Shown: positions 6,903 through 53,737 of the stretch, piece after piece
Numbering within the stretch: position 1 is the stretch's first letter
Layout: every line of letters starts with the position of its first letter
NCBI RefSeq assembly: GCF_018687075.1
Contig: NZ_CP061285.1
Location: 558,001-622,000, forward strand
DNA length: 64,000 nucleotides
Origin: Polynucleobacter sp. MWH-UH35A
GTDB taxonomy: Bacteria > Pseudomonadota > Gammaproteobacteria > Burkholderiales > Burkholderiaceae
Direction: 5' to 3'
Program-made: the position numbers and the translations under genes
The notes under the pieces: model-generated
Seen by the model: only the letters and a program-made list of their open reading frames with translations
Database searches by the model: none
Told to the model about the DNA's origin: nothing

Positions 6903-7406
6903 ATGGAGCATTTGTTCGATCATTTTTTTGCTTGGTTCGAAATGCCCTCTGTTGGTTTGCCAGCAGTATTTCTGAGTTCATTTATTTCTGCGACTTTAAT
7001 ACCCGCTGGCTCAGAGCCAATCCTGTTTGGCTATATCACGCTGAACCCGCACTTATTTTGGGTTGCGATTATAGTTGCTACAGTCGGCAATACTTTGGGT
7101 GGTATGGTGGATTGGTGGCTAGGGGTCATTGCCCGCAATAGCTTTAAGACGATGGATGAGCCTCGCAATGGCCGCCTAAAGCGTTGGCTTGAGGAATGGG
7201 GGCCGAAGTTGTTGCTACTTTCCTGGCTGCCTGGGTTAGGCGACCCTTTATGTCTCGCGGCCGGGTGGTTAAAACTCCCTTGGCAGCCATGCCTCATTTA
7301 TATGTTTATTGGCAAGCTACTGCGTTTTATTACGCTTACATGGCTTTTAACTCTAGTTCCAGAAAGTTTCTGGCATCAACTAGGTCATTGGCTGCACCTC
7401 ATTTAA
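6903..7406 (+). CDS. YqaA family membrane protein (DedA-like)
   Basis: 167 residues from the ATG at 6903. The open frame extends 27 codons further upstream, but that part is hydrophilic and unlike the family. Features are a re-entrant-type hydrophobic segment with SSFISATLIPAGSE, then GNTLGGMVDWWLG and a C-terminal helix pair. Both motifs match YqaA, a relative of the DedA/SNARE-associated family. DedA relatives act in lipid-carrier or lipid flipping in the inner membrane; whether YqaA does is not established. No strong ribosome site is visible, so the start is uncertain. Confidence 0.7.
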   Translation: MEHLFDHFFAWFEMPSVGLPAVFLSSFISATLIPAGSEPILFGYITLNPHLFWVAIIVATVGNTLGGMVDWWLGVIARNSFKTMDEPRNGRLKRWLEEWGPKLLLLSWLPGLGDPLCLAAGWLKLPWQPCLIYMFIGKLLRFITLTWLLTLVPESFWHQLGHWLHLI

Positions 7407-8107
7407 ACCGCACAATACTTCTGCTGAATCTCATCATTATTTAATAAATTCTGAGCGGTGTCGTGAAACACAATCTCACCCTGATCTAGGATGTAAGCTC
7501 GATCAGAAATCTTCAAAGCTTGTTGCACGTTTTGTTCTACCAGCAGGATAGTCAGGCCCTGTTGTTTTAGCTTGGCGAACAACTCGAACATTTCATCAAC
7601 TAAGACCGGCATGATGCCTTCAGAAGGCTCATCTAGCAAAATCACCTTAGGCTTGCCAATCATTGCCCTAGCAATAGCCAGCATTTGTTGTTCGCCGCCT
7701 GACATCGAGGTGCCATCTTGATGAAGGCGCTCTTTGAGGCGTGGAAATATCTCGGCAATCTCATCAACTAATGCGCTCATATCGCCGACATTCTTTTTTG
7801 CGATCACCCCAAGCTCCAAATTTTCTTTAACAGTGAGTCCGGGAACGATGCGGCGATCCTCTGGAACGTATGCTAACCCTAAGTGGAAGCGTTCGTGAGC
7901 AGGTAAGTCTAAAAATGAAGTGCCATCAATTGAAGCTTTGCCTTCGCGCTTGGAGAGTAGGCCCATGAGCGAGCGCAATGTAGTAGTTTTACCTGCGCCA
8001 TTACGACCCATCAAAGTAACAATTTCACCTTTATTGACTTCAAGTGAGATGCCTTGCAATACATGACTGCGGTCATACCACGCGTTTAAATTTTCTACAC
8101 GCAACAT
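7403..8107 (-). CDS. livF: Branched-chain-type ABC transporter ATPase LivF
   Basis: 234 residues, the usual LivF length. Walker A is GRNGAGKTT, the signature is SGGEQQML, and Walker B is VILLDEPSEGIMP; the SEG after DEP is a LivF hallmark. It is last in a minus-strand transporter operon (SBP, livH, livM, livG, livF) that also carries catabolic genes upstream. The substrate may therefore be an aromatic or heterocyclic acid rather than leucine. Its last bases overlap the end of the convergent yqaA-like gene. Confidence 0.88.
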   Translation of the reverse strand: MLRVENLNAWYDRSHVLQGISLEVNKGEIVTLMGRNGAGKTTTLRSLMGLLSKREGKASIDGTSFLDLPAHERFHLGLAYVPEDRRIVPGLTVKENLELGVIAKKNVGDMSALVDEIAEIFPRLKERLHQDGTSMSGGEQQMLAIARAMIGKPKVILLDEPSEGIMPVLVDEMFELFAKLKQQGLTILLVEQNVQQALKISDRAYILDQGEIVFHDTAQNLLNNDEIQQKYCAV

Positions 8108-8121
8108 ATTTTGCTTTCTGT

Positions 8122-8877
8122 TTAACCTTGACCTAGGTACACACGACGTACCTCGGCGTTATTTTGGATTTCTTCTGGAGTGCCTTCGGCCAAAAACTCG
8201 CCGTGATGTAAAACGATAATGCGCTTACAAAGGCCCATAATGAGTTTCATCTTGTGTTCAACCAAGATCACAGTGCGCTCATTAGCAAGTGTACGAATGA
8301 GTTCCATCATGACCAATGTTTCTTCTGGAGACATGCCGGCAGTCGGTTCATCAAGCAGGAGCAAGCTTGGATTGCAGGCTAAAGCCATTGCAATCTCAAG
8401 GGCGCGCTGTTGGCCATGAGCTAGGTCGCCTGTTTTCTTGTTCCGTAGGTGCTCTAGATTAACTCGGCGTAGAAGTTGGTCGGCGAGTTCTATGGGGCCT
8501 GGATAGCTCTGCGCATTGCGGAGAAAGTTGTAGCGCGCCGTTTCCATTTGGGCGGCAACGCGGACATTTTCATGAACGCTCAGCTGTTTGAAGACATTTG
8601 TAATCTGGAAACTTTTAGAGATACCAATACGGGCAAACTCATGCTGCTGCATACCGGTGATATCTTTACCATTAAATAGAATCTGGCCGCTTGTAGGAGG
8701 AAATGCTCCGCTCAACACATTAAAGAATGTGCTTTTGCCAGCACCGTTTGGTCCAATGATGGCAGTCAGGGTTCCGGGCATAAAGCTGGTGGATACATCT
8801 TGCAATGCTTTGAACTTGCCAAAGCTTTTGCTAACGTGACGTGCTTCAAGAATGGGAGTAGTGGTTGGGCTATTCAT
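8122..8877 (-). CDS. livG: Branched-chain-type ABC transporter ATPase LivG
   Basis: 251 residues. Walker A is GPNGAGKST, the signature region is LAHGQQRALEIAMAL, and Walker B is LLLLDEPTAGMSPEE. The TAGM sequence and the AHGQQR signature are typical of LivG. The start codon overlaps the livM stop by one base, and 14 bases separate it from livF. It energises import together with LivF. Confidence 0.88.
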   Translation of the reverse strand: MNSPTTTPILEARHVSKSFGKFKALQDVSTSFMPGTLTAIIGPNGAGKSTFFNVLSGAFPPTSGQILFNGKDITGMQQHEFARIGISKSFQITNVFKQLSVHENVRVAAQMETARYNFLRNAQSYPGPIELADQLLRRVNLEHLRNKKTGDLAHGQQRALEIAMALACNPSLLLLDEPTAGMSPEETLVMMELIRTLANERTVILVEHKMKLIMGLCKRIIVLHHGEFLAEGTPEEIQNNAEVRRVYLGQG

Positions 8878-9836
8878 TATTTCGAATCCTGATTAATTTG
8901 TAACTTGCTCAGAATGGTTCCCCAGATCCCCTTAGGGAAGAACAGCACGAAGAACATGAAAACCACACCAACAACAGCCATCCAGTGTTTGGTAAAAGTG
9001 GTGACGACATCCTCTAGATAGAGCATGACTGCTGCGCCAATAAACGGGCCAAAGAATGTACCCATACCACCCAAGATGCTCATCATGACAGCTTGACCGG
9101 ATTGCAAGTAATGCAAAGAATCAATCGGCACAATAGAAAGGTGAAGGGCCCGCAATGAACCGGCTAAGCCACAAATAGCTGCTGACAAGACAAATACCAA
9201 TAGTTTGGTGCGAGCCACGTCGAATCCACAGGCTGCGGCGCGTTTTTCATTCTCACGAATGGCCTCCATCACGGCGCCTAAAGGAGAGCTCAGGATGCGA
9301 GAGATTAACCAAATTGCGATCACCACAAAAAATAGAATGATGTAGTACTTCACTAAAGGGTTTAAGAAGTCAGTCGGAATGCCAAGGATGTTGAATTCAT
9401 TGACGCGAACTCCGCGCAAACCATTCTCGCCACCAGTAAGGCTTTCTGCTTTGTAAAAAATGTAATACACGATTTGACCAAGCGCTAATGTCACCATGGA
9501 GAAGTAGATACCCCGAGTGCGGATAGCTAGATAACCCATGATGAGCCCACCAATGGCAGCACCAATAATCCCAACCAAAATTGCGGCACCCCATGGCATT
9601 CCGTAGTGAACAATGCCGATACCAGTGAGGTAACTGCCAATACCTAAAAATGCGGCATGGCCAAAAGAGAGAAGGCCCATATAACCAAAGAGCAAGTTGA
9701 AGCCCATGGCGAACAAACCAAAGATCAAAATATTGATTGCCAAAGCTTCGTACGGCATGATGAACGGAAAGATCGCCAAGAACAGCGTGCTAGCGAGTAC
9801 GCGATGGCGTGCGATGAGTTGTAAAAATGATTTCAT
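8877..9836 (-). CDS. livM: Branched-chain-type ABC transporter permease LivM
   Basis: 319 residues with about nine hydrophobic helices. Conserved LivM stretches are GLLSFGHAAFLGIGSY, IRTRGIYFSMVTLALGQ and GGENGLRG. It forms the inner-membrane channel with LivH. It lies 14 bases after livH and overlaps livG by one base. Confidence 0.88.
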   Translation of the reverse strand: MKSFLQLIARHRVLASTLFLAIFPFIMPYEALAINILIFGLFAMGFNLLFGYMGLLSFGHAAFLGIGSYLTGIGIVHYGMPWGAAILVGIIGAAIGGLIMGYLAIRTRGIYFSMVTLALGQIVYYIFYKAESLTGGENGLRGVRVNEFNILGIPTDFLNPLVKYYIILFFVVIAIWLISRILSSPLGAVMEAIRENEKRAAACGFDVARTKLLVFVLSAAICGLAGSLRALHLSIVPIDSLHYLQSGQAVMMSILGGMGTFFGPFIGAAVMLYLEDVVTTFTKHWMAVVGVVFMFFVLFFPKGIWGTILSKLQINQDSK

Positions 9837-9850
9837 ATATATACGGAGCC

Positions 9851-10735
9851 TTAGCCCATCGCTCCTGCTTTGCCAAATAAACCTTGTGGGCGAATTAACA
9901 ACACGACCGCCATCAATACAAAGATGGAGAGCTCTGCCAAGTCAGGGAAGAATAGAGAAGTCATGCTGTAGACAATACCTACAAATAAGCCGGCAACAAC
10001 AGCGCCTACTGGTGAGCCCATACCACCGACGACCGTTACTACAAAGGACTCAGCCAAAATCGGAATGCCCATTTCTGGATTAACTGAACGTGTTGGTGAG
10101 GCCAGAATGCCAGACAAGCCAGCAATTGCACATCCCAAACCAAAGACTAAGAGCCAAACCTTGGCAATATCAACGCCAAGCACCTTCACGATTTCTTGAT
10201 CTGCTGCACCTGCTTTGATGATGAGGCCATAGCGTGTTTTCTGAATGAAGAACCAGACACCCAGAATGATGATGGCAGTCGCAACTATTAAGAAGAGACG
10301 GTATTTGGGGAAAAAGCCAATGCCTACGTTCAATGTTCCGCCTAGACCCTCTGGGGTGATGGAAGGTAAGCCTTCGATGCCAAAGGTGACGCGCATCACT
10401 TCGATCAATACATAAGAAAGACCGAAGGTGAGTAGTAGAGGGTAATCTAGGCCGCGACCATAGAGCGGTCTCACTAAGAAACGCTCAGTGAGAAGTCCTA
10501 TGCCGCCTGTTATCAAAGGGGTGAGCACTAAGCTAAACCAAAAGCTTCCAGTGACGCCCAGGAAATAAACCCCTAAAAAAGCGCCCACCATAAAGAAGGC
10601 TCCATGAGCGAAGTTCACCACATTCAGCATGCCAAAAATTAGGCATAAACCTAGTGCTAGAAGTGCATAAATACTGCCTAAGGCGATGCCTGTAAGCAAT
10701 TGCATGCAAAGAAGTTCAAATGTAAGACCAGTCAT
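9851..10735 (-). CDS. livH: Branched-chain-type ABC transporter permease LivH
   Basis: 294 residues with about eight hydrophobic helices. Family sequences are GSIYALLALGLCLIFG, NFAHGAFFMVGAF and GGMGSPVGAVVAGLFVG. It follows the binding-protein gene after an 86-base gap that contains a hairpin, a common arrangement when the binding protein must be made in excess over the permease. Confidence 0.88.
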   Translation of the reverse strand: MTGLTFELLCMQLLTGIALGSIYALLALGLCLIFGMLNVVNFAHGAFFMVGAFLGVYFLGVTGSFWFSLVLTPLITGGIGLLTERFLVRPLYGRGLDYPLLLTFGLSYVLIEVMRVTFGIEGLPSITPEGLGGTLNVGIGFFPKYRLFLIVATAIIILGVWFFIQKTRYGLIIKAGAADQEIVKVLGVDIAKVWLLVFGLGCAIAGLSGILASPTRSVNPEMGIPILAESFVVTVVGGMGSPVGAVVAGLFVGIVYSMTSLFFPDLAELSIFVLMAVVLLIRPQGLFGKAGAMG

Positions 10736-10784
10736 AAATGTACTCAGAAAAACTCCCCGCTACCGACTGGTTTTGGGAAGTGGA

Positions 10785-10811
10785 TCAGGGTGAATGATTA
10801 ATCCACCCTGA
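10785..10811 (-). promoter_or_regulatory. Intercistronic hairpin between binding protein and livH
   Basis: TCAGGGTG, an 11-base loop, then CACCCTGA: a perfect 8-bp stem lying 10 bases past the binding-protein stop and upstream of livH. On the transcribed strand it is not followed by a U run, so it is more likely an mRNA-end stabiliser or partial attenuator than a full terminator. Confidence 0.5.
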
Positions 10812-10821
10812 AATTTTTGGA

Positions 10822-12057
10822 TTAGGCTTTGTGGCCTAGCTCTGCGCAAGAACGCATGTTTTTCTCAGTAGTAGGTTCAATCGTCAAAATATTGAAGACG
10901 TCATACTTGTCTTTCATATTCTTAGATTTGGACTCTACGATGATGACGGTTTGAACAGCTTGATGATCGCATTTGCGATAGTACTCAGGACCCTTGTACC
11001 AGTCGTATTTCATGTTTTCCATTGCTGTAACCACTTTTAGCGTGTCGGTGGACTTTGCAATCTTCACTCCAGCCAAGACGCTCTTCACACCTGCATAACC
11101 CAGTGCGCCGTAATCAGATGGCACGGAGCCGTTATACATTTTGCGGAAAGCATCATTAAATGCTTTTGCAGTCGGAATGCGATCCTCAAGACCCCAGTAA
11201 TAGGAGGTGCCACCGATGATGCCTTCAAAAGCTTCGGGCCCACCTGCTAGACGTGAGGTGTAAAGCAGTACCGGTGTCACAATCTTCATACTGGATTTAA
11301 GGCCGAAGTCAGTGCACTGCTTAGCGGCATTTACCAAGTCGCGACCAAAGTTACAGAGCACCAAAATGTCTGGGTTTAAGGCTTTAATACGTGGTAAGAA
11401 AGCGGAGTAATCAGATGCGCCTAATGGGTGACGAATGTCAGCCAACGTTGTTGCGCCCATTTCTTTGCCAGCACGCTCAAAAGCACGAACCATTTCATGG
11501 CCGTAAGCATAGTCAGCCGTTAAGAACACAATCTTTTTGCCAAAGCGAGGAATGGAGTAGCGTGCTACAGCACCAGCAGTCATTGTTGGGTTTAGTGCTT
11601 CATGGAACGTATACACACTCCAGTCTTTTGCTTCGTTAATCGCATCAGATTGGCTGATGGAGTTAAACAGAACCTTACGCTCTTTACATACTGCATTGAT
11701 TGAGAGTTGTGTAGCAGCAGAAAGTGAGCCAACAACAAAATTCACTTTATCTTTTTCAATCAACTCTAATGTGCGAGTTGCCGCCTCACCAGGATTGAGT
11801 TTGTCATCGCGCACCAAGAGTTCTGCTTTGCGTCCATTGAAACCGCCGGCATCATTAAATTCTTTGATAGCTAATTCAGCAGCTTTTACCTGGTCTTGCG
11901 CTTCCGCAGAGAATGGACCAGTTAAGGGTGTTGGAAAGCCGATCTTGATGGTGTCGGCTTGCGCATTTGCAACGTTTAACCAAAGTGGGGCGCTTGCTGC
12001 AGCTGCTCCACCAATCAACATCTGGCGTCTAGTTTGATTCGTTACTTTTTGTTTCAT
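10822..12057 (-). CDS. ABC transporter substrate-binding protein (LivK-like), Tat-exported
   Basis: 411 residues from the ATG at 12057. An in-frame ATG five codons upstream overlaps the ribosome site GGAGGAGA, so the later start is right. The N-terminus has a twin-arginine motif (QTRRQMLIGGAAAA) and an ANAQA cleavage region. The mature part has the type I periplasmic fold: IKIGFPTPLTGPFS, NDAGGFNGRKAELL, FVVGSLSAATQLS. Tat export and association with hydroxylase and monooxygenase genes favour an aromatic-type ligand over amino acids, but this is inference. Confidence 0.85.
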   Translation of the reverse strand: MKQKVTNQTRRQMLIGGAAAASAPLWLNVANAQADTIKIGFPTPLTGPFSAEAQDQVKAAELAIKEFNDAGGFNGRKAELLVRDDKLNPGEAATRTLELIEKDKVNFVVGSLSAATQLSINAVCKERKVLFNSISQSDAINEAKDWSVYTFHEALNPTMTAGAVARYSIPRFGKKIVFLTADYAYGHEMVRAFERAGKEMGATTLADIRHPLGASDYSAFLPRIKALNPDILVLCNFGRDLVNAAKQCTDFGLKSSMKIVTPVLLYTSRLAGGPEAFEGIIGGTSYYWGLEDRIPTAKAFNDAFRKMYNGSVPSDYGALGYAGVKSVLAGVKIAKSTDTLKVVTAMENMKYDWYKGPEYYRKCDHQAVQTVIIVESKSKNMKDKYDVFNILTIEPTTEKNMRSCAELGHKA

Positions 12058-12131
12058 GGTTGTCTCCTCCATATAAAACTTTGTTAAATAAGAATACTTT
12101 TGTTTTTCTAAATCTTAACTGAATGCGCCTT

Positions 12132-13373
12132 TCAATGTGCGGACTCAGGCACTGCTTTCCCTTGGGCTAATAGATCGCTGATATCAATCGCGGTTTCCGC
12201 CATTACAGTATCGGCATTTCTTTTGAGCTTCTCGTTATCCCTATTACCCTTGCTGCCCTGGGCTTGCATATAGCGTCCCAAATATTGCGCTCTAGCCACT
12301 ACTTGCTGTCCTAGTTTGAGTCGCTCATCGCTATAAGCATTCAGTGCTGCTGGGGTGGCTCCAAGTACGGCAATGTGCTTTGCAATTACCATGGCTTCAT
12401 CGCCTGCTTTGGTGACCCCCATTCCCACGTGAGGTCTGCCAACAAATGCTGCATCACCCATTAAGGCAATTCTGCCAAATACAATTTGTTCTGATCGCAC
12501 GTCATAAATTGCTTGTAAGAAGGGGGCTGCTGTTTTTTCAAGAATCTCGGCGTATTGCGGCGCCAGAATTTCTTGTGCCACTTTGCGCATATGCGCAATA
12601 TGCTTCCAGGAAACCTTGAGTGGTGGGATACCGGTGGGGTAATAATGGCCATCATCATCGGTCAGAAGACTTACCAGCTCCTCATGTTCCGATGCGGGGC
12701 GATACCATACAAAGTTATAACGACGCTTGCCTGGGCGAGTGTCATTGCCTGTGCCAGCAACTGGATACCCGAGCATTTGCTCGCCATTCGGTAAGCAAAA
12801 TCCAAAGCGATTAAATAGGGTCTCCAAGGTGTACTGAGATAAGCAGGCCTCATCGCACACACCACGCCAAGCAATATAGCCAGCGTATTCAGGTTGAATC
12901 TGCGGCGCGACTTGTGCTCTTACTGCGGAGCGTATGCCATCGGAAGCGATTAATAGCTCCGCATCATATTTACTGCCATCCTCACACAGCACATGCACAG
13001 CGTTCACATCTTGAGTAACGGTCTTTACTGTTTTGCCTTGAAGGTAGCGCTCGCTTGGGAAGCTTTCTTTGAGCATGTGATAGAGGCGGCTCCAGGAGGT
13101 AAGTACCTGAGGTAGATCCATTTCACCGAGGCTTTGGCCGTCTGCGCCTAAAGTGATGCGTTTGGTCACAGGAACGCCCAGAGTTTCGTCAACGGTGACC
13201 CCAGCTGCTCTTAATGCTTCTGCTAGGGCATCGTGCGTCACAATACCGGCGCCACGACCGTCTAGAGAGCCAACAGTCTTCTCTAGTAAGGTGACGTCAT
13301 GACCTTGTCGCAGCAAAATGTTTGCCGCAAATAATCCGCCAAGAGAGCCGCCAACAACTAGAATTTTTGCCAT
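12132..13373 (-). CDS. FAD-dependent aromatic monooxygenase, 2,6-dihydroxypyridine 3-hydroxylase-like
   Basis: 413 residues; the ATG at 13373 has AGGAG six bases upstream. Motifs are the FAD-binding GGSLGGLFAANIL at the N-terminus, ASDGIRSAVRAQ in the middle, and GDAAFVGRPHVGMGVTKAGDEA near residue 320. GRGAGIV and YAGYIAWRG recall 2,6-dihydroxypyridine 3-hydroxylase and related class A flavin hydroxylases. These insert one oxygen atom into a hydroxylated ring using NAD(P)H. The adjoining VOC gene and the divergent molybdenum hydroxylase would fit successive ring hydroxylations. The exact substrate is unknown. Confidence 0.75.
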   Translation of the reverse strand: MAKILVVGGSLGGLFAANILLRQGHDVTLLEKTVGSLDGRGAGIVTHDALAEALRAAGVTVDETLGVPVTKRITLGADGQSLGEMDLPQVLTSWSRLYHMLKESFPSERYLQGKTVKTVTQDVNAVHVLCEDGSKYDAELLIASDGIRSAVRAQVAPQIQPEYAGYIAWRGVCDEACLSQYTLETLFNRFGFCLPNGEQMLGYPVAGTGNDTRPGKRRYNFVWYRPASEHEELVSLLTDDDGHYYPTGIPPLKVSWKHIAHMRKVAQEILAPQYAEILEKTAAPFLQAIYDVRSEQIVFGRIALMGDAAFVGRPHVGMGVTKAGDEAMVIAKHIAVLGATPAALNAYSDERLKLGQQVVARAQYLGRYMQAQGSKGNRDNEKLKRNADTVMAETAIDISDLLAQGKAVPESAH

Positions 13374-13382
13374 CAATTTCTC

Positions 13383-13841
13383 CTATGCTGCTTTCGCATC
13401 TAAGGCAGTTTTTTCTGCTGCTGGATAGTTCAACTCAATCACAATGCCATTCGGATCATCCAAAAATATTTGATGGAGCCCTATAACAGGAACGGTTCGC
13501 TCGCGATAGGCAATATTTAATTTTTGAAGTAGGGCAATTTTTTCTTCCAAGCCAGTTGCAAAAAATGCGATGTGATCAACCGCCCCAGATCCATGTAGGG
13601 TACTAGGGTCGCGATCTCCTAAATATTTTTTGAGTCCATTCGGATCATTTTTATCAATAGCAATCAAGTGCAAGACTGCGTTAGCCCAACTACTTTCATC
13701 GCCGTTGTAAAGCCATACACCGGGAAACGGAAACTCTGGCCTTGGTCCAACAGTTAAGCCAAGCAATTGCTCATAAAACTCAGTTGTTTTTTCGATTTCG
13801 AGGCTGCGAATGGAGAAGTGATTGAGGCTTAAGTTAGACAT
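13383..13841 (-). CDS. VOC superfamily protein (glyoxalase/dioxygenase fold)
   Basis: 152 residues with the two beta-alpha-beta-beta-beta modules of the vicinal oxygen chelate fold. Candidate metal ligands are H8 (NHFSI), the His of VDHIAFF, the His of LHQIF and the Glu of VIELN. The ribosome site AAAGG lies five bases before the ATG. Family members isomerise, ring-cleave or modify electrophiles. Its position between the TetR gene and the flavin monooxygenase suggests action on an intermediate of the same pathway. It is short for a classical extradiol dioxygenase, so a glyoxalase-like role is equally possible. Confidence 0.75.
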   Translation of the reverse strand: MSNLSLNHFSIRSLEIEKTTEFYEQLLGLTVGPRPEFPFPGVWLYNGDESSWANAVLHLIAIDKNDPNGLKKYLGDRDPSTLHGSGAVDHIAFFATGLEEKIALLQKLNIAYRERTVPVIGLHQIFLDDPNGIVIELNYPAAEKTALDAKAA

Positions 13842-13852
13842 GATGACCTTTG

Positions 13853-14548
13853 TTATTGGGCAAATAGTGATTTGGCGGAATGAAGGTAAGACTGCACTCG
13901 ATCTCGAATGATTTCTTGTTCTGTATTAGGGCTCTCAGCTGCATAGATAGCTTGTCCGTAGATCCAGCGTCGCATACCGATATAGAAGATTCCACCATGC
14001 AGACCCATCAAAAATTCAAGCTCACGTTGCGTCGGCTTGGATGTATCTGATCTACCGCAATACTTACGAGTTTCGCGAATCAGTCTTGGTAACAAGCGTT
14101 TACGTAAAAGTTCGAAGAAGCGATCACTGATGGAGTGATCGCTCAGTCCCGAGAAAATCAAGATGCGAACAAAGTCATACGTCAAGACTGTGTTGGAATA
14201 GTCCAAGTAAAACGCATTGAATTTTTCTTCGGGCGTAAGTGACTCATCATCAAGTAACTCTTCCCACTCCGGTTTCCAACGAGACTCAAAAACCTCTTTG
14301 TAGACTTCCTGAATCAAAGCGTCTTTGGTTGGGAAATAGTGATAGAGCAGGGTATGGGTGATCCCGAGCTCTTTGGATAAATTTCTGAGCTGCCCATCAA
14401 CTCCATTTCTGGCAAAGAATTGAATGGCGCTGTCGACTATTTGGCGTTTCCGTTCGGCTGTCCCCATCCGCTTTCGGATTGGCGTTGTTCCACCCGCTGA
14501 AATTTCAGCATTATTTGGGCTGGAAACGCTATCTTCACTAAATCGCAT
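13853..14548 (-). CDS. TetR family transcriptional regulator
   Basis: 231 residues. The N-terminal helix-turn-helix is RKRQIVDSAIQFFARNGVD...LGITHTLLYHYFPTKDALIQEV, a standard TetR reading head. The C-terminal ligand domain is not assignable. It lies at the junction between the transporter/monooxygenase operon, of which it is the first gene, and the divergent molybdenum-hydroxylase genes. A 13-bp palindrome in the 112-base gap is a candidate operator, so it probably controls both directions and itself. Its effector is likely the pathway substrate. Confidence 0.85.
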   Translation of the reverse strand: MRFSEDSVSSPNNAEISAGGTTPIRKRMGTAERKRQIVDSAIQFFARNGVDGQLRNLSKELGITHTLLYHYFPTKDALIQEVYKEVFESRWKPEWEELLDDESLTPEEKFNAFYLDYSNTVLTYDFVRILIFSGLSDHSISDRFFELLRKRLLPRLIRETRKYCGRSDTSKPTQRELEFLMGLHGGIFYIGMRRWIYGQAIYAAESPNTEQEIIRDRVQSYLHSAKSLFAQ

Positions 14549-14605
14549 GGATTCTCAGGGTTTATCCGAATTTGGACTTATTGACCAAAAGTTAAATAAT
14601 GGTAC

Positions 14606-14618
14606 ATTGTTGAACAAT
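14606..14618. promoter_or_regulatory. Candidate TetR operator
   Basis: ATTGTT-G-AACAAT, a perfect 6-1-6 palindrome centred in the divergent gap between the TetR gene and the CoxG-like gene. Size, symmetry and position suit a TetR-type operator acting on both promoters. No binding data exist; this is a sequence-based proposal. Confidence 0.45.
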
Positions 14619-14660
14619 TGGTAGATAAGACTCTATTCGTACAAACCCCAAGGAGATCAA

Positions 14661-15116
14661 ATGGAATTAAATGGCGAGCAACTGATATCGGCTCCAATCC
14701 CAGAAGTATGGAAGGGTTTGAACGATATTGACGTCTTGGCCAAGTCTATTCCTGGCTGTGAGGAGATCAATCGGATCTCTCCAGATGAGATCCACGCCAA
14801 GGTGATGTTCAAGATTGGGCCCGTAAGAGCCCGTTTTGCCGGGAAATTACTCCTGAGCGACATCATTCCAGACCAATCTTGTTCAATGGCTTTTGAGGGG
14901 TCTGGCGGGGCGGCTGGATTTGCCAAAGGAAAGTCACGGGTAGAGCTAAAGCAGGCTGAAGGAGGCACTTTGGTTTCTTACACAACCGAAGCCTCGATTG
15001 GCGGCAAATTAGGTCAAATTGGCGGGCGCTTAATTAGCGCATCGGCCAAAAAGATTGCGGACGACTTTTTTCAGAAGTTTGCAAAAGAATTAGGCGGGGA
15101 GACAGTGGCGTTGTAG
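14661..15116 (+). CDS. CoxG-like SRPBCC family protein
   Basis: 151 residues of the CoxG branch of the START/SRPBCC fold: IPGCEEI, HAKVMFKIGPVRARFAGK and a Gly-rich centre SGGAAGFAKGKSRV. CoxG proteins are encoded with CO dehydrogenase and related molybdenum hydroxylases and help recruit or mature the enzyme at the membrane. This one lacks the C-terminal membrane anchor of Oligotropha CoxG. Ribosome site AAGGAG precedes the ATG. It is first in the plus-strand unit, followed after 146 bases by the FAD subunit gene. Confidence 0.8.
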   Translation: MELNGEQLISAPIPEVWKGLNDIDVLAKSIPGCEEINRISPDEIHAKVMFKIGPVRARFAGKLLLSDIIPDQSCSMAFEGSGGAAGFAKGKSRVELKQAEGGTLVSYTTEASIGGKLGQIGGRLISASAKKIADDFFQKFAKELGGETVAL

Positions 15117-15262
15117 TCATACGCTAGCAGTGAATAAAGAGTAGCAGCAAGACTCTAAAAAATAAAACTACAAAAAGTAGTTGTCGTAAACCAAGTAGCA
15201 AACAGAGCGGTACAAAAATATAAAGCTAAAAAAGCTAATGACATTGGTGGTGGAGGAGACGA

Positions 15263-16117
15263 ATGAAATCTGCAGCATTTGATTATGTAAAGCCTAAGGC
15301 ATTGCAGGAGGCATTATCTTTGCTTGAACAGGGCGGTGATGATGCTCGCTTAATTGCGGGCGGCCAAACTTTACTGGCTACCTTGAATATGCGCTTGTCT
15401 GAACCTAGCGTATTAATTGATATTACCGATGTAGCTGAGCTGAAGGGCATTTCTATTGTTGGTAACAGCCTGCGTATTGGTGCGTTAGTAACGCATACTG
15501 AAATTGAAGATTCGGAGTTGGTGGCAAAACATGCTCCGCTTTTAAAAGCAGCCGCCCCACATATTGCTCATCGGGCAATTCGCAATCTGGGCACCTGGGG
15601 CGGATCTTTAGCCTACGGTGATCCAGCCGCTGAGTGGCCTGCCTGCAGCTTGGCCTTGCGTGCAACCATGATTATTCATGGTCCAGCCGGCGAACGAAAA
15701 ATTCCAGCTAAGGATTTTTTTATCGATCTCTACACAACATCTTTAGAGTCCGATGAAATTTTGGTTGCCACTGAGATTCCGCTTGCAAGTCAGCAAGAGG
15801 TTTTTTATTTCCATGAGCTGGCCAGGCGTCATGGTGATTACGCAGTTGCTGGATTAGCTGCAACAGCACAAAAGCAAGGTGATGTTTTATCTAATTGTGC
15901 TTTTATATTCTTTTCGGTTGGCGCCACACCAGTGATGGCAACAAAAGCGCAGGACTTGGTAAATGGTCAAAAATTAAATGATCAATTGATTGCCAAAGCG
16001 GTAGCTGAAGCTCGCAATGAAATCGAAGCGATTGCCGATATCACTAATAGCGCAGAAGCCAAGCAACATTTAATTGGTGTTTTGCTTGAGCGTGGTCTCA
16101 AGCACATGATTGCTTAA
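15263..16117 (+). CDS. Molybdenum hydroxylase, FAD-binding medium subunit (CoxM-like)
   Basis: 284 residues with the two FAD-contact motifs of this family: IAGGQTLLATLNMR (about residue 32) and GTWGGSLAYGDPAAEWPA (about residue 112). The C-terminal domain is the CO dehydrogenase flavoprotein type. It takes electrons from the [2Fe-2S] subunit and passes them to an acceptor. A strong ribosome site (GGAGGAGA) precedes the ATG. Gene order medium, small, large (MSL) matches cox and nicotine/xanthine dehydrogenase operons. Confidence 0.88.
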   Translation: MKSAAFDYVKPKALQEALSLLEQGGDDARLIAGGQTLLATLNMRLSEPSVLIDITDVAELKGISIVGNSLRIGALVTHTEIEDSELVAKHAPLLKAAAPHIAHRAIRNLGTWGGSLAYGDPAAEWPACSLALRATMIIHGPAGERKIPAKDFFIDLYTTSLESDEILVATEIPLASQQEVFYFHELARRHGDYAVAGLAATAQKQGDVLSNCAFIFFSVGATPVMATKAQDLVNGQKLNDQLIAKAVAEARNEIEAIADITNSAEAKQHLIGVLLERGLKHMIA

Positions 16118-16148
16118 GCTCAATCATTATAAGAATTTGGAGATCAGA

Positions 16149-16658
16149 ATGAGTTTGAAGAAAAAAATTTCAATGACTGTGAATGGTCAACTGGTATGCG
16201 CAGAGATTGAGCCGCGCCGACATTTGGTGGATTTTTTACGTGAAGACCTTCATCTCAAAGGGCCTCATTTGGGTTGTGAGCAGGGCGCATGTGGAGCCTG
16301 CACTGTCAAAGTGAATGGGCAAATTATTCGTGGATGCCTTTTTTTGGCAGTCCAAGCAGACGGCAGCGTGGTTGAAACGGTTGAAGGGCTTACTAAGAGC
16401 GGTGTCTTAACCGATCTACAAGAGTCTTTTATGCGTCACAACGCAATGCAATGTGGCTTCTGTTCTTCCGGAATGTTGTTAGCTGCAGCGGAATTAATTG
16501 AGAGGCAGCCTAAGGCAACTCGCGAACAAGTGCGCGAGTGGATCTCCGGCAATTACTGCCGTTGTACTGGCTACCACTCGATTGTGGATGCGATTGTCGA
16601 CGTATTAGAAGTCCGAGCTAAGGGCCAAAAAATTAAACCCGTCCTCGCTAACGCTTAA
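16149..16658 (+). CDS. Molybdenum hydroxylase, [2Fe-2S] small subunit (CoxS-like)
   Basis: 169 residues from the ATG at 16149, which has GGAG upstream; an ATG 13 codons earlier would overlap the medium-subunit gene and gives no family sequence. Two [2Fe-2S] sites are complete: C43, C48, C51, C63 (plant-ferredoxin-like) and C102, C105, C137, C139 (the CxRC helical domain, GNYCRCTGY). It relays electrons from the molybdenum centre to FAD. Confidence 0.9.
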   Translation: MSLKKKISMTVNGQLVCAEIEPRRHLVDFLREDLHLKGPHLGCEQGACGACTVKVNGQIIRGCLFLAVQADGSVVETVEGLTKSGVLTDLQESFMRHNAMQCGFCSSGMLLAAAELIERQPKATREQVREWISGNYCRCTGYHSIVDAIVDVLEVRAKGQKIKPVLANA

Positions 16659-16676
16659 GGTATTAAGGAACGCATT

Positions 16677-19073
16677 ATGAATAAGCCAAGTGATTTAAAA
16701 GGAATGGTGCTTGATCCGGTAACAAACGATCAGCGTTATATCGGCCATAGTGAGCCGAGACATGGTGCTCGCCGTTTGCTTGAGGGTCAAGGTACTTACA
16801 TTGATGATATTCAATTGCCGCGCATGGCTCATGTAGTGTTTTGGCGCTCTCCAGTGGCACATATGAAGATCGGAAAAATTCATACAGATCATGCTAGCAA
16901 GATGCCAGGTGTGCTTGCAGTTGTTGATGGCGTGCAAATGGCAAAAATCTGTAAGCCTTGGGTTGCAACTTTAGGGCATCTCGCTGGCATGAAGTCTGCA
17001 CCACAACACGCGCTCGCAATTGATCGTGCGTGCTGGCAAGGTGAGCCGGTGGTTGCGGTGGTTGCTGAAACCAGAGCACAGGCAGAGGATGCTTTGCAGC
17101 ACATTGAGGTTGAGTGGGAGGAGTTGCCGGCGGTTGTTTCTATGGAAACTGCGTTAGATGCGGACACTCCAGTCATACATCCAGAGCTTGGTGACAATCT
17201 ATGTTTTACCCGCAGTCTAGATGTTGGTAATGTAGATGAGGTATTTGCGACAGCAGATGTGGTGGCTGAAGCTACCTTCGGATTTGGTCGCCATACTGGT
17301 GTCACCCTTGAGCCACGCTGCCAAATTGCGGATTACAGCCCTGGCGATCGTCGTTTGACGGTGTATCACTCTCAACAAGCGCCACACATGATGCAGGATT
17401 TATATTGCCGTCAGTTTGGATTATCTGAATCTGACGTGCATGTGATCTGCAAAGATGTAGGTGGCTCTTTTGGCATTAAAGTTCACGCATATCCAGATGA
17501 CTTTGCAACTGTGGGTCTCGCCATGATGTTAGAGCGCCCTGTAAAGTTTGTGGCGGATCGCTTGGAGTCATTTACAAGCGATATTCATGCGCGCGAGCAT
17601 CGCATTAAGGGCCGTATTGCTGCCAATAAGGCGGGCGATATCTTGGCTTTTGAGATTGATGACTTAACTGCTATCGGTCCTTATTCGATGTTCCCAAGAA
17701 CCAGTGCCATTGAAGGTAACCAGGTAGTGAATCTGGTTGGAGGTCCCTACAAGCATCAAAATTACCGTGCACATTTAAACGTAGTCTTCCAGAACAAAAC
17801 CCCAACGTGTCAGTATCGCGGGGTAGGCCATCCGATTGCCTGTGCAGTTACAGAAGGCTTGGTTGACTTGGCTGCGCAAAAATTGCAAATGGATCCACTG
17901 GAATTCCGCAAGCGAAATGTTATCCCTGATGATGCTTATCCATGCTCTGGAATTTCTGGGATTAAGTTAGAAGTTCTTTCGCATCAGCAATGCCTCAATA
18001 CCATTGAAAAAATGATGGACTATCCAGCATTGCGTAAGGAGCAGGCTGAATTGCGAAAGAAAGACATATATCGCGGGATTGGGTTTGCAACCTTAATTGA
18101 GTTAACGAATCCGAGTCCCGCTTTCTATGGAGTAGGCGGTGCTCGTATTGCTTCTCAGGATGGTGCTACCGTGCGCATGGACCCTAGTGGTGTGGTTTCG
18201 GTATTGATTGGTGTTGGAGAGCAAGGTCAGGGGACCGAAGGTATCTACACGCAAATCGCCGCTGATTCTGTGGGCGTCTCCATTGATCAAGTTCGTATTG
18301 TTACTGGCGATACTGATGTCACTCCTTATGGCGGCGGTACTTGGGCGTCACGTGGCGCTGGCGTTGGTGGTGAAGCAGTTCTCTTGGCGTCACAAGCTTT
18401 GCAAGAAAATATCCTAAAGCTTGCTGGTGCTATTTTGAATCGACCAGTTACAGAATTAATGGCGCGCCGTGGTCACATCCTAGACAAAGCAACTGGCGAG
18501 CAGTTGCTGCCATTTAGTGAGGTGGGAAGAGTAGGTTATTTCCGCACGGATACTCTGCCAGCGGGGTTCTCTGCTGATCTTATGGTGACACGTCACTATA
18601 CCCAAAAAGATTACCCATTTATTTTTACCAATGGCGTTCAAGCCTCTTATGTTGAAGTCGATCCAGACACTGGTTTTGTGAAGTTATTAAAACATTGGGC
18701 GGTTGAGGATTGTGGTCGAGTAATTAATCCGATGTTGGTAAATGAACAAGTCCGTGGTGCAATTGTTCAGGGTATCGGTGGTGTTCTATTCGAAGAGTGT
18801 CTCTATGATGAAAGTGGTTTACTGCGGAACGGCAGCATGGCTGACTATTTAGTTCCAATGGCTAATGAGATGCCAGATATTGAAGTTGCTCACGTAGAGA
18901 CTCCAACGCAATCATCCAAATTGGGCGCCAAGGGGGCGGGTGAGGCTGGTACAGCAGGTGCGCCGGGTGCAGTTCAAAACGCTATCAATGATGCTCTGGC
19001 ACCATTGAACGCAAGCGTCTTTGACCAGCCCATCACCTCCGAAAAGATCCTGCGGGCGCTCAAGAAAATTTAA
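16677..19073 (+). CDS. Molybdenum hydroxylase, molybdopterin-binding large subunit (CoxL-like, not CO dehydrogenase)
   Basis: 798 residues. The substrate loop reads C378-QYRGVGH-385, unlike the AYxCSFR loop of true CO dehydrogenase (form I) and slightly different from the AYRGAGR of form II enzymes. The molybdenum-cytosine-dinucleotide contacts GEQGQGTEGIYTQIAAD and the catalytic Glu E756 (GAKGAGEAG) are present. The enzyme therefore probably hydroxylates a carbon next to nitrogen or another aromatic/aldehyde carbon, using water as oxygen source. No signal peptide is seen, so it acts in the cytoplasm. The neighbouring flavin hydroxylase and importer suggest a catabolic pathway. Confidence 0.88.
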   Translation: MNKPSDLKGMVLDPVTNDQRYIGHSEPRHGARRLLEGQGTYIDDIQLPRMAHVVFWRSPVAHMKIGKIHTDHASKMPGVLAVVDGVQMAKICKPWVATLGHLAGMKSAPQHALAIDRACWQGEPVVAVVAETRAQAEDALQHIEVEWEELPAVVSMETALDADTPVIHPELGDNLCFTRSLDVGNVDEVFATADVVAEATFGFGRHTGVTLEPRCQIADYSPGDRRLTVYHSQQAPHMMQDLYCRQFGLSESDVHVICKDVGGSFGIKVHAYPDDFATVGLAMMLERPVKFVADRLESFTSDIHAREHRIKGRIAANKAGDILAFEIDDLTAIGPYSMFPRTSAIEGNQVVNLVGGPYKHQNYRAHLNVVFQNKTPTCQYRGVGHPIACAVTEGLVDLAAQKLQMDPLEFRKRNVIPDDAYPCSGISGIKLEVLSHQQCLNTIEKMMDYPALRKEQAELRKKDIYRGIGFATLIELTNPSPAFYGVGGARIASQDGATVRMDPSGVVSVLIGVGEQGQGTEGIYTQIAADSVGVSIDQVRIVTGDTDVTPYGGGTWASRGAGVGGEAVLLASQALQENILKLAGAILNRPVTELMARRGHILDKATGEQLLPFSEVGRVGYFRTDTLPAGFSADLMVTRHYTQKDYPFIFTNGVQASYVEVDPDTGFVKLLKHWAVEDCGRVINPMLVNEQVRGAIVQGIGGVLFEECLYDESGLLRNGSMADYLVPMANEMPDIEVAHVETPTQSSKLGAKGAGEAGTAGAPGAVQNAINDALAPLNASVFDQPITSEKILRALKKI

Positions 19074-19090
19074 GATCCAGTCGATCCTGG

Positions 19091-19118
19091 CACCCCCCAA
19101 GGATTGTCTTGCGGGGTG
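19091..19118 (+). terminator. Probable terminator after the molybdenum hydroxylase genes
   Basis: CACCCCCCAAG and CTTGCGGGGTG pair over 10 bp with one mismatch around a six-base loop, 18 bases past the large-subunit stop. The following bases (GTCCTTT) are only weakly U-rich, so termination may be partial. Confidence 0.5.
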
Positions 19119-19197
19119 GTCCTTTACATCCTGTAACATCAAGTTTTGGGGTAAATCAGCTGATGCGCCCTCTGGTTAACTTGATACGGTAAAAGAA

Positions 19198-20084: not shown

Positions 20085-20678
20085 ATGGCCTCAATCTTGA
20101 CCTCTTTAGGGCGCACCGTTTTAGCGGGCTTTGTCCTTCTTGTTTTAATTATTCTTGCTTTGGGCGGCAACTTTAGTTCTGCTGAGCTCCCATTTGTTTT
20201 CCGTTGGTTGCACGTGATGTTTGGTGTGATGTGGATCGGTTTGCTTTGGTACTTTAACTTTGTGCAAATTCCGTCTATGCCAAAGATTCCAGATGAGCAA
20301 AAACCAGCAATTGGCAAAGTAATTGCGCCAACAGCATTGTTCTGGTTCCGTTACGCAGCATTATTCACGGTAGTAACAGGCTTGATTGTTGCTGGCTTGA
20401 GTGGATATTTGCATCAAGCTTTCACATTGCAAGCACCGTTCCGCGCAATCGGTTTAGGTATGTGGATTGCTTTGGTAATGGCTTTCAATGTTTGGTTCAT
20501 CATTTGGCCAAATCAAAAACGCGCTCTTGGCATTGTTGCTGTTGAAGCTGATGTCAAAGCAAAGTCAGCTCGCGTTGCAATGTTGACATCCCGTTTGAAT
20601 ACATTGTTATCAGTACCAATGTTGTTCTTGATGGTTGCTCAATCCCACAACACCACTTGGTTTGTGATCGTTTCTTAA
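20085..20678 (+). CDS. PuuD-like integral membrane protein
   Basis: 197 residues with about five hydrophobic helices. The sequence FRWLHVMFGVMWIGLLWYFNFVQIPS resembles the membrane domain of urate hydroxylase PuuD. Full-length PuuD has a C-terminal cytochrome c domain (CxxCH); this protein has none, so urate oxidation is not supported. The conserved His and Trp-rich helix could still bind haem. Ribosome site AGGAGA precedes the ATG, and a strong terminator follows. Function unknown. Confidence 0.65.
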   Translation: MASILTSLGRTVLAGFVLLVLIILALGGNFSSAELPFVFRWLHVMFGVMWIGLLWYFNFVQIPSMPKIPDEQKPAIGKVIAPTALFWFRYAALFTVVTGLIVAGLSGYLHQAFTLQAPFRAIGLGMWIALVMAFNVWFIIWPNQKRALGIVAVEADVKAKSARVAMLTSRLNTLLSVPMLFLMVAQSHNTTWFVIVS

Positions 20679-51764: not shown

Positions 51765-52589
51765 TTACTTCTTCGCATTAGGAAAGAAGAGTTGCTCGCC
51801 ATCAATTTTGTAACTAGCAATCACATCTTGCCCATTCTTGGAAATTAGCCAATCAATGAATTCCTGACCTTGTGCTTTTTTCACATGAGGGAATTTTGCT
51901 GGATTGACCAACATTACACCGTATTGATTAAAGAGCTTCGGATCACCTTGTACCAAAATGACGAGATCACCACGATTCTTGAAGCTGAGCCAAGTGCCGC
52001 GGTCTGCCAAGATGTAGCCATTCATTGCTGATGCTGTATTAAGGGCAGGGCCCATGCCAGAACCAGTTTCCTTGTACCAGGCTGGCCCAGGTGAAACGGA
52101 GATTCCAGCACCTTTCCAGTAACGCAATTCTGCAGCATGCGTGCCGCTCTTATCACCGCGAGATATGAATGGCGCTTGCGCTGCAGAAATCTTTTGAAAT
52201 GCCGCTTGGATATCCTTGCCGCCACCGACTTTTGCCGGATCGGATTTGGGCCCAATCAAAATAAAGTCGTTGTACATCACTTCGTAGCGCTTGGTCGAAT
52301 AACCTTCTTCCACGAATTTTTCTTCGGCAGGTTTGTCATGAACAAATACGACATCTGCATCGCCACGACGACCAATATCTAATGCTTGGCCAGTACCGAC
52401 AGCAACAACCTTCACCTCAATGCCAGTCTTCATTTTAAAAATTGGCAGCATGTAATTAAAAAGGCCGGATTGTTCGGTGGAGGTGGTGGAGGACACCACA
52501 ATACTTTTTTCTTGGGCGTATAACTCAAACGATGTAATGGATAGGGCTGCTAGTGCCGTAAGGAATAGTTTGCGAATCATTTTTTTCAT
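51765..52589 (-). CDS. tupA: Tungstate ABC transporter substrate-binding protein
   Basis: 274 residues. A signal peptide ends at SFELYAQE. The sequence SIVVSSTTSTEQSGLFNYMLPIF is the TupA ligand-site signature (TTTS-like), followed by GTGQALDIGRRGDADVVFVHD. TupA binds tungstate with very high affinity. The matching permease and ATPase (tupBC) are not here but at 484-1888. It is divergent from a regulator gene and co-directional with Mop. Confidence 0.88.
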   Translation of the reverse strand: MKKMIRKLFLTALAALSITSFELYAQEKSIVVSSTTSTEQSGLFNYMLPIFKMKTGIEVKVVAVGTGQALDIGRRGDADVVFVHDKPAEEKFVEEGYSTKRYEVMYNDFILIGPKSDPAKVGGGKDIQAAFQKISAAQAPFISRGDKSGTHAAELRYWKGAGISVSPGPAWYKETGSGMGPALNTASAMNGYILADRGTWLSFKNRGDLVILVQGDPKLFNQYGVMLVNPAKFPHVKKAQGQEFIDWLISKNGQDVIASYKIDGEQLFFPNAKK

Positions 52590-52631
52590 GTCTGCACTCT
52601 AAGTAGTTGATTAAATGTCTATCATCGCATA

Positions 52632-52646
52632 CATTAATACTTAATG
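52632..52646. promoter_or_regulatory. Candidate operator between tupA and its divergent regulator
   Basis: CATTAA-TAC-TTAATG, a perfect 6-3-6 palindrome flanked by GCATA and TATGC (imperfectly symmetric). It lies in the 76-base gap between tupA and the HTH-PBP regulator gene, 20 bases before the regulator start. Position and symmetry suggest binding by that regulator. Confidence 0.45.
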
Positions 52647-52665
52647 AATATGCAAAAGATTACAT

Positions 52666-53688
52666 ATGCAAATTGAAGTGCGACCAACCCTAATTGTTAA
52701 GACCAAAGCTGAAGGAAAAACCTCGGTGGACCTCATTTGGCTTGCTCAGTTGCTCAAAGATATTGGTGGCGGCAGCTCTCTAGTAATTGCCAGCAAGAAA
52801 TCAGGTACTTCCTATAGGGGAGCCTGGGGAAAATTAAATCAGGTTGAAGATGAATTAGGTATGCCGCTGATTGTTCGGACAAAAGGTCATGGGTCTAAAT
52901 TGACTGAATTCGGTACATTTTTAATTCAGTTTATTGAAGACATGCAAGCGGGGTATCTGAAGTACGATGCCCAGTACCATGATCTTCTGGTAAAAGAGAT
53001 TCAGAAAATACAAAAGTCAGAAAGAATTCGTTGGAAATTTTTCTCCAGTAGTGATTCCATTATTCAAAAAGCAGCTGGAGAAATAAAAGGAGTTGAGCTC
53101 AAGATTGCGGGCTCAGGCGAATCTTTGGAGAAGCTTCTGAACAATGAGGCACACATTGCTGGATATCATGTTTCTGACCCTGGTAGTTCGAAGGCAATCT
53201 ATCAGCGCTTATCAAAAAATAATATTGAAATTTATCCCGTGATGAAACGCATCCAAGGATTGATTGTCAAAAAGGGAAATCCACTACATATTCGTTCGGT
53301 TGAGGATTTGATGGGCAAAAGGATTCGATTTATTAATCGACAGATTGGGTCCGGGACTCGATTGTTGTTGGATCAGCTTCTCATGGAGGAAGGGGTCGAT
53401 CCATTGGAAATTAACGGTTACTTGCATGAAGAGTTTACCCATTCAGCCGTCGCCAACGCCATACTCGCTGGCAAAGCTGATGTTGGTTTGGGGGTCAAGA
53501 ACATTGCTATCGAAAACGGCTTGGGTTTTGTGCCCTTAAGAGATGAAATTTTCTTTATTGCGATGCATAAAGAGATGGCAGCCCAATCAGTTTCATCTAA
53601 ATTGATACGCAAAATCCGAAGTTCTTCTGGAGAGACTCCAGGTTATAAGGCGGTTAGCTTAAATAGACAAATTCAGGAATGGCTGTAG
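52666..53688 (+). CDS. HTH regulator with periplasmic-binding-like domain (ModE/TunR-like)
   Basis: 340 residues. A ModE/LysR-type winged helix-turn-helix (TSYRGAWGKLNQVEDELGMPLIVRTKGHGSKLTEFG, about 47-85) is fused to a PBP-like domain (about 110-340; SGESLEKLLNNEAHIAGYHVSDP, FINRQIGSGTRLLLDQLL, ANAILAGKADVGLGVKN). Regulators of this layout sense metal oxyanions or molybdenum cofactor precursors. Its position between tupA and modA suggests it controls molybdate/tungstate uptake. Confidence 0.8.
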   Translation: MQIEVRPTLIVKTKAEGKTSVDLIWLAQLLKDIGGGSSLVIASKKSGTSYRGAWGKLNQVEDELGMPLIVRTKGHGSKLTEFGTFLIQFIEDMQAGYLKYDAQYHDLLVKEIQKIQKSERIRWKFFSSSDSIIQKAAGEIKGVELKIAGSGESLEKLLNNEAHIAGYHVSDPGSSKAIYQRLSKNNIEIYPVMKRIQGLIVKKGNPLHIRSVEDLMGKRIRFINRQIGSGTRLLLDQLLMEEGVDPLEINGYLHEEFTHSAVANAILAGKADVGLGVKNIAIENGLGFVPLRDEIFFIAMHKEMAAQSVSSKLIRKIRSSSGETPGYKAVSLNRQIQEWL

Positions 53689-53737
53689 TTTTCTTGAGGC
53701 TTTTATATAGCGCCGAATCTACTAGAATGGACTGCAT

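Follow-up and report, generated by a model that had tools for sequence, protein, structure and literature searches.

We analysed a 64,000-nucleotide stretch of the genome of Polynucleobacter sp. MWH-UH35A (NZ_CP061285.1, positions 558,001 to 622,000), hereafter the window; the genome around it is a single contig of 1.96 Mb. Window positions 7403–19073 hold 12 intact open frames, arranged as two divergent units around a 112-bp gap (14549–14660), and encode an importer, a flavin monooxygenase (FMO), a VOC protein, a TetR regulator, a CoxG-like protein and a three-subunit molybdenum (Mo) hydroxylase, MoM-MoS-MoL. The minus strand reads TetR, VOC, FMO, binding protein, LivH, LivM, LivG, LivF, and the plus strand CoxG, MoM, MoS, MoL. 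An original prediction, made from the DNA letters, had described two such units sharing one regulator gap; both this layout and the gene set were borne out, with 12 of 12 open frames at the predicted positions and their families recognised by Pfam and NCBIfam. The features are as follows.

7403–8107, minus strand: LivF/UrtE-type ATPase of the importer (family models; collinear in 13 genus loci, L033–L045)
8122–8877, minus strand: LivG/UrtD-type ATPase (family models; collinear in L033–L045)
8877–9836, minus strand: LivM/UrtC-type permease (family models; collinear in L033–L045)
9851–10735, minus strand: LivH/UrtB-type permease (family models; collinear in L033–L045)
10822–12072, minus strand: periplasmic binding protein with a Tat-like TRRQML motif (Peripla_BP_6 PF13458, 1.3e-83; motif scan)
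12132–13376, minus strand: FAD monooxygenase (FMO) of the 2,6-dihydroxypyridine-3-hydroxylase family (PF22607 and PF01494, PRK07236; profile 1.4e-64 to 2vou; model TM 0.84)
13383–13841, minus strand: VOC/glyoxalase protein, a proposed ring-opening metalloenzyme (PF00903; conserved residues; model pLDDT 89)
13853–14548, minus strand: TetR regulator (PF00440)
14583–14623, no strand: operator-like inverted repeat GACCAA...TTGGTA inside the divergent gap (pattern picked after alignment)
14661–15116, plus strand: CoxG-like SRPBCC protein (PF06240, 4.5e-28)
15263–16117, plus strand: MoM, FAD subunit of the Mo hydroxylase (PF00941, PF03450)
16149–16658, plus strand: MoS, subunit with two [2Fe-2S] clusters (PF01799, PF00111; re-assigned start)
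16677–19073, plus strand: MoL, Mo-cofactor subunit, quinoline-2-oxidoreductase-like (YRGVG loop, no CO dehydrogenase Cys loop)
7407–19127, no strand: presence/absence unit, approximate extent (alignment to empty site L199; six empty sites, L199–L204)

The start of MoS is most likely the ATG at 16149 rather than the upstream TTG given in the list of open reading frames. ARAGORN places a tRNA-Trp at 15588–15679, inside the MoM coding frame, which is probably a false positive.

Co-occurrence, decay and empty sites within the genus

Within the genus, the two units form one cassette, as seen from their co-occurrence, their joint decay and their empty site. Among 121 genus genomes drawn, 60 hold both FMO and MoL and 57 hold neither; MoL stands alone in one (G394, 73% complete) and FMO in three (G361, 78% complete; G094, where it is broken; and G390). 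The 60 include G259, in which both genes are broken, and G342, whose sole match was a 34% paralog, was left out of the MoL list before counting. Fisher's p for this co-occurrence is 1.2e-29, a value that ignores relatedness. In a separate draw of 299 family genomes, FMO was found in 16 genus genomes and MoL in 15, all of them among the 16; the sixteenth was G094, with broken pieces only.

The block from CaiB to MoL and the adjoining SDR gene is collinear in all 13 intact relatives fetched (L033–L045). In G259 (L046) and G094 (L047), TetR, DedA and the PuuD-like gene are intact but both halves are fragmented, and in G094 the acyl-CoA dehydrogenase (AcdH), SDR and rubrerythrin genes are broken as well and CaiB was not found; in both genomes the cassette is decaying as a whole. 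Conversely, DedA and SDR are adjacent, with the whole cassette gone, in each of six inspected genomes out of the 57 that lack it. Alignment to the empty site L199 stops at window position 7412 and resumes at 19128. Since the empty sites join the same neighbours, the cassette is a unit of presence and absence, with limits that match those originally predicted.

The genome G373 (L208) and P. kasalickyi (L119) carry the cassette between different flanks or with another importer; these are exceptions of place. A recent foreign island is not supported, given a G+C content of 0.45–0.49, like that of the rest, and unchanged flanks in all 13 intact loci fetched.

Enzymes, importer and regulator of the cassette

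The Mo hydroxylase has the make-up of the xanthine oxidase family, with FAD, two-[2Fe-2S] and Mo-cofactor subunits identified by Pfam and NCBIfam, as had been predicted along with CoxG. The GAGEAG region, in which the catalytic Glu presumably lies, is present in MoL. The best relative of MoL in the Protein Data Bank (PDB) is quinoline 2-oxidoreductase (1t3q, 450 bits), with which it has the active-site loop YRGVG in common, although the lead over CO dehydrogenase is small.

The FMO lies nearest to 2,6-dihydroxypyridine hydroxylase (DHPH) by sequence, profile and fold. A profile search gave 222 bits (E 1.4e-64) for DHPH, followed by HpxO (105 bits, 4e-29) and NicC (96 bits, 2e-26), and the structural model ranks its matches in the same order, DHPH (TM 0.84 to 2vou) and then HpxO. 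The match to 2vou covers ~370 residues at about 30% identity; the predicted DHPH-like character thus stands as the nearest relationship, but a distant one, and activity on 2,6-dihydroxypyridine is a prediction. Mo hydroxylation followed by flavin monooxygenation, the logic originally proposed, fits the nearest relatives of the two enzymes.

The partner of the FMO is fixed. Among 86 distinct FMO genes of at least 41.5% identity in the loci fetched, a set that includes many Polynucleobacter loci, a VOC gene lies within 400 bp on the same strand in 81, and a cupin of one family takes its place in five, all alphaproteobacterial; none has both or neither. The VOC protein has the VOC fold (model pLDDT 89), and its residues H8, H58, H90 and E136 are conserved in 72 of 72 sequences. 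From knowledge of the VOC family, these would be metal ligands, and the protein is predicted to be metal-dependent. Among 120 of 1732 homologs listed, names are generic (VOC, glyoxalase, dioxygenase-like).

In the nicotine plasmid pAO1, the gene directly upstream of dhpH encodes a PF04199 cyclase, of which no homolog was found in the other fetched loci. According to the authors' account of pAO1, this cyclase is proposed to cleave the ring and resembles HpoH, which processes trihydroxypyridine (PMC6214936). Because three unrelated proteins, VOC, cupin and cyclase, occupy the same slot beside the FMO, ring opening may be assigned to this slot. As originally stated, no ring-opening dioxygenase of known type was recognised among the cassette frames. 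Apart from the VOC protein, neither the cassette nor the scanned recurrent neighbours yielded a recognisable ring-opening candidate, dihydroxypyridine dioxygenase and PF04199 not having been searched for genome-wide.

All genes of the importer predicted as a complete LivHMGF system are present, and the four besides the binding protein match Urt/Liv families. All five subunits score higher with Urt than with Liv models, below the cut-offs of both, including the curated Liv cut-offs for branched-chain amino acids. On these scores, 'Liv' is a family label and not a substrate. The binding protein, predicted to be exported by Tat, carries the Tat-like TRRQML motif; among 59 related binding proteins scanned, a strict Tat pattern matches 36 and fails in 23, several of which keep RR or RRR.

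The gap between TetR and CoxG contains a conserved core with an inverted repeat at 14583–14623. The operator pattern, chosen after viewing the alignment, occurs once in the window against 0.21 matches expected. Of 86 TetR-bearing loci, 36 have ACCAA...TTGGT no more than 250 bp before TetR, compared with 54 of 4300 random windows; 30 of these 36 loci are from Polynucleobacter or close relatives, and the other six (L118, L130, L142, L150, L159, L163) belong to other genera.

Neighbourhoods beyond the genus

The comparison of MoL neighbourhoods across Burkholderiales that the original prediction had called for shows the cassette layout recurring in other members of the order. Among MoL-aligned named genomes, we surveyed the best 80 of 503 relatives (L096–L175). 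FMO and VOC genes stand beside the Mo genes in 46 of these 80 loci, and in all 46 they are adjacent on one strand, so that this layout is not a product of chance. At least four importer genes, at 55% identity or more, accompany them in 36 of the 46, and three Ramlibacter loci have the Mo genes, VOC, FMO and importer all in one direction. A further 22 loci have a TRAP importer and neither FMO nor VOC, and the remaining 12 are truncated or of other types; TRAP occurs in none of the 46 loci with FMO and VOC. On the MoL tree, obtained by a quick method and with some long branches, the TRAP label has to change five times, so importer swaps recur. The same Mo hydroxylase is accompanied by a TRAP importer in L091 and L092 as well. 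Locus L127, from a record titled as an Akkermansia muciniphila metagenome-assembled genome, is Limnohabitans-like, and its contig is probably misbinned.

On the FMO side, we fetched 19 of 57 non-genus genomes with an FMO match. All but one of these loci (18 of 19, L048–L065) hold a VOC-FMO pair, with a DUF485/ActP symporter of the SSF family beside it in 18 of 18 and a distant MoS homolog in 6 of 18; L066 has an FMO of 40% identity and no VOC. On three plasmids, the FMO-VOC pair lies near a Mo hydroxylase of the cytochrome-c type, and some FMO-VOC plasmid loci also carry an amidohydrolase and an alkene reductase. Within the genus, G390 lacks the cassette and has FMO (75%) and VOC (84%) at another place, without the Mo half (L205, 4470–11321). 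Facing this pair is an alpha/beta hydrolase gene, for which 2,6-dihydroxypseudooxynicotine hydrolase is the top PDB match (E 4e-28) and of which L050 has a counterpart; genes for a flavin reductase and a CocE/NonD hydrolase are close by, and a relative (54–55%) of this CocE/NonD gene follows LivF in two Ramlibacter loci. The relatives of FMO and MoL and the neighbours in G390 point to pyridine chemistry.

The plasmids pMRAD01 and pNMS14P1 of two Methylobacterium strains (L090, L181), one of them from a Coffea arabica root, carry relatives of the cassette at identities of 65% for MoL and 43–45% for FMO. pMRAD01 resembles the cassette in its MoL (65%), binding protein (67%), importer (59–63%), CoxG, TetR and FMO (45%), and differs from it in that a cupin replaces VOC and in the genes uraH, uraH and uraD alongside.

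Proposed pyridine-type catabolism and competing explanations

We lean towards a three-step pyridine-type scheme as the best explanation of the cassette. An N-heteroaromatic compound, most likely of pyridine type, would be taken up through the ABC importer and degraded by a self-contained catabolic unit. TetR would keep both divergent operons repressed from a single operator until the substrate or a pathway intermediate displaces it. The Mo hydroxylase, probably aided by CoxG in assembly or membrane tethering, would put oxygen on the carbon next to the ring nitrogen; FMO would hydroxylate the di-oxygenated ring as DHPH does; and the VOC metalloprotein would open the tri-oxygenated ring by dioxygenation or hydrolysis. 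By analogy to pAO1, the speculative end point could be 2-oxoglutaramate, converted to 2-oxoglutarate through a nitrilase-family amidase encoded elsewhere, and this would account for the lack of any further catabolic gene regularly retained next to the cassette. The genome of the window has three CN-hydrolases, one of which matches the pAO1 amidase at 35% identity across 204 residues.

The nearest known system is the lower nicotine pathway of Paenarthrobacter pAO1 (KDH, DHPONH, DHPH, PKC cyclase and NIT), where kdhC, a Dabb gene, the cyclase, dhpH, an SRPBCC gene and the amidase form a single run. Both systems combine a Mo hydroxylase with a DHPH-family FMO, have the gene of the ring-opening slot directly upstream of the FMO, and include an SRPBCC/CoxG gene. 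In contrast, the cassette FMO is ~30% identical, VOC stands in place of the PF04199 cyclase, and the cassette has its own ABC importer and TetR. DHPON hydrolase, PF04199 cyclase and amidase are not among the cassette frames; an amidase homolog lies elsewhere in the genome, in which PF04199 was not searched for genome-wide.

Several observations weigh against this scheme. The FMO is 29.8% identical to pAO1 dhpH, which is not ortholog level, so a transfer of substrate from DHPH is weak, and CO dehydrogenase 8uem follows closely as the second PDB match of MoL (431 bits against 450). The VOC fold is generic: the model matches many VOC proteins equally, including L-DOPA dioxygenase and glyoxalases, so that an extradiol dioxygenase role is not set apart by fold match, and the sequence search found no close VOC of known function. 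Since the swap between VOC and cupin follows the class (beta or alpha), it represents few independent events and may be a single one. The CN-hydrolase is best scored as a deaminated-glutathione amidase, below cut-off. FMO is absent, at E 1e-30, from 20 of the 22 TRAP-type genomes, so the Mo product can be used without FMO and VOC; L085 and L093 have Mo genes with an ABC importer and no FMO beside them. These two loci and the TRAP loci are real evidence against obligatory coupling, and the VOC-FMO pairs of L048–L065 come without a MoL ortholog. The original prediction had linked the two units and named their separate, independent conservation as the observation that would speak against the link. 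The link holds in the genus and in many other Burkholderiales, but not strictly outside the genus, where the Mo half without FMO and FMO-VOC without MoL realise this separation in part.

The main rival, which we consider unlikely, is urate or methylxanthine chemistry, in which the Mo enzyme would oxidise C8 of a (methyl)xanthine, the FMO, like HpxO or TmuM, would turn (methyl)urate into an unstable hydroxyisourate, and VOC or cupin would act next, with later steps spontaneous or encoded elsewhere. In its favour are the Methylobacterium plasmids, where Mo enzyme, importer, CoxG, TetR and FMO stand beside an NCS1 permease, an Asp/Glu racemase, two uraH genes and uraD, which speaks for purine-type chemistry there and counts against the pyridine-type scheme; yet among the fetched loci homologs of these uraH and uraD genes (E 1e-10) occur in L090 and L181 only. 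By fold as well as by profile the FMO has HpxO as its second match, but DHPH is clearly nearer, and the PuuD-type urate-oxidase membrane domain encoded just outside the cassette is also encoded in six inspected cassette-free genomes. By its published description, the caffeine C-8 cluster of Pseudomonas CBB1 (CdhABC-TmuM-TmuH-TmuD) has the same order of Mo enzyme then flavin monooxygenase, with an unstable hydroxyisourate (PMC4408171). It differs in its UraH and UraD family members: neither uraH (PF00576) nor uraD (PF09349) had a match in the window's genome, while the controls matched in 4 of 14 each. Rather improbable is a locus of two modules with separate functions, in which TetR would control a Mo hydroxylase that has its own importer, and the FMO-VOC pair would act on some other compound. 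The TRAP loci (22 of the best 80, 20 of them from genomes without FMO), L085 and L093, the 18 of 19 non-genus FMO loci and G390 would all suit such an arrangement, but in the genus both halves persist, disappear and decay as one, Ramlibacter holds both in one run, and TRAP is absent from all 46 loci with FMO and VOC.

Oxidation of CO by a CoxLMS-type enzyme with CoxG would account for the CoxG-like gene and for the high scores of CO dehydrogenase models and structures on MoL. An active-site cysteine loop of CoxL typifies aerobic CO dehydrogenase, however; it reads YRCSF in 1ffu and YACSF in 8uem and is replaced by YRGVG in MoL, which also scores far under the CO dehydrogenase cut-offs. We reject a CO dehydrogenase identity for want of this loop, and regard CO oxidation as extremely improbable. 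A different question, compatible with pyridine and purine routes alike and with a weight that is not exclusive of theirs, is whether the VOC protein opens a ring at all. It could instead be an isomerase, or remove or protect against a reactive FMO product, a role that we hold to be a real but minority possibility. Glyoxalases, Fos enzymes and drug-binding proteins are among its matches, and in pAO1 biology trihydroxypyridine is described as the source of the pigment nicotine blue (PMC6214936), whereas the four candidate metal ligands kept in 72 of 72 sequences and the lack of another ring-opening candidate in the cassette or the scanned recurrent neighbours argue against such a role. The boldest form of the pyridine-type scheme is tentative: VOC, and with it the alphaproteobacterial cupin, might represent a novel type of enzyme that opens tri-oxygenated pyridine rings, replacing the unrelated cyclase of nicotine and 2-hydroxypyridine pathways, so that the cassette would need three enzymatic steps to bring a common dissolved freshwater N-heteroaromatic close to central metabolism. 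That VOC supplies the ring-opening step had already been suggested in the original prediction; it remains plausible from the fixed pairing with FMO, replaced only by cupin in the loci seen, though the fold is generic.

The flanking CaiB, AcdH, SDR and PuuD-like genes are unlikely to be members of the pathway, as they stay in the six inspected cassette-free genomes and are absent from 16 regions fetched beyond LivF in other genera. Counter to this rejection, the TRAP-type locus L129 has homologs of AcdH and CaiB nearby (71–73%; AcdH 73%), CaiB homologs (45–60%) lie near L117, L127 and L136, and in G094 AcdH, SDR and CaiB share the fate of the cassette, being broken or missing. A scan of neighbours in other genera, limited to recurrent families, returned MutL, VTT/DedA, AmiC, QueG, TctC receptors, XdhC and an ABC permease; an aldehyde dehydrogenase lies near the cassette in four genomes (mutually 32–35%), and a CocE/NonD hydrolase is a neighbour in two Ramlibacter genomes. 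The PuuD-like gene of the window (20085–20678) is shared with those six cassette-free genomes and encodes a 197-residue protein that matches a portion of the N-terminal PuuD-type urate oxidase domain (PF06181, 2.7e-14). By eye, several Bug-type binding proteins of tripartite tricarboxylate transporters were assigned, at 38233, 43705, 57940 and 61769. Oxyanion-uptake genes at 484–1888 and 51765–54493 could supply molybdenum or tungsten (Mo/W) to the Mo hydroxylase; by family models, they are:

484–1888: TupB-like permease and ATPase
51765–52589: TupA-like binding protein
52666–53688: regulator-like protein with HTH_1 and PBP-like domains
53738–54493: ModA

A search of the open-licence literature found no paper describing the cassette. 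It is common in these small-genome freshwater bacteria, present in 60 of the 121 genus genomes drawn, and recurs across Burkholderiales. With its constant pairing to VOC or cupin, the FMO marks out a ring-opening step that can be tested and may be new. In most of the genus loci seen, the cassette is present or absent as a whole between one pair of neighbouring genes, so that strains with and without it are a natural experiment on the dissolved compound that it serves.

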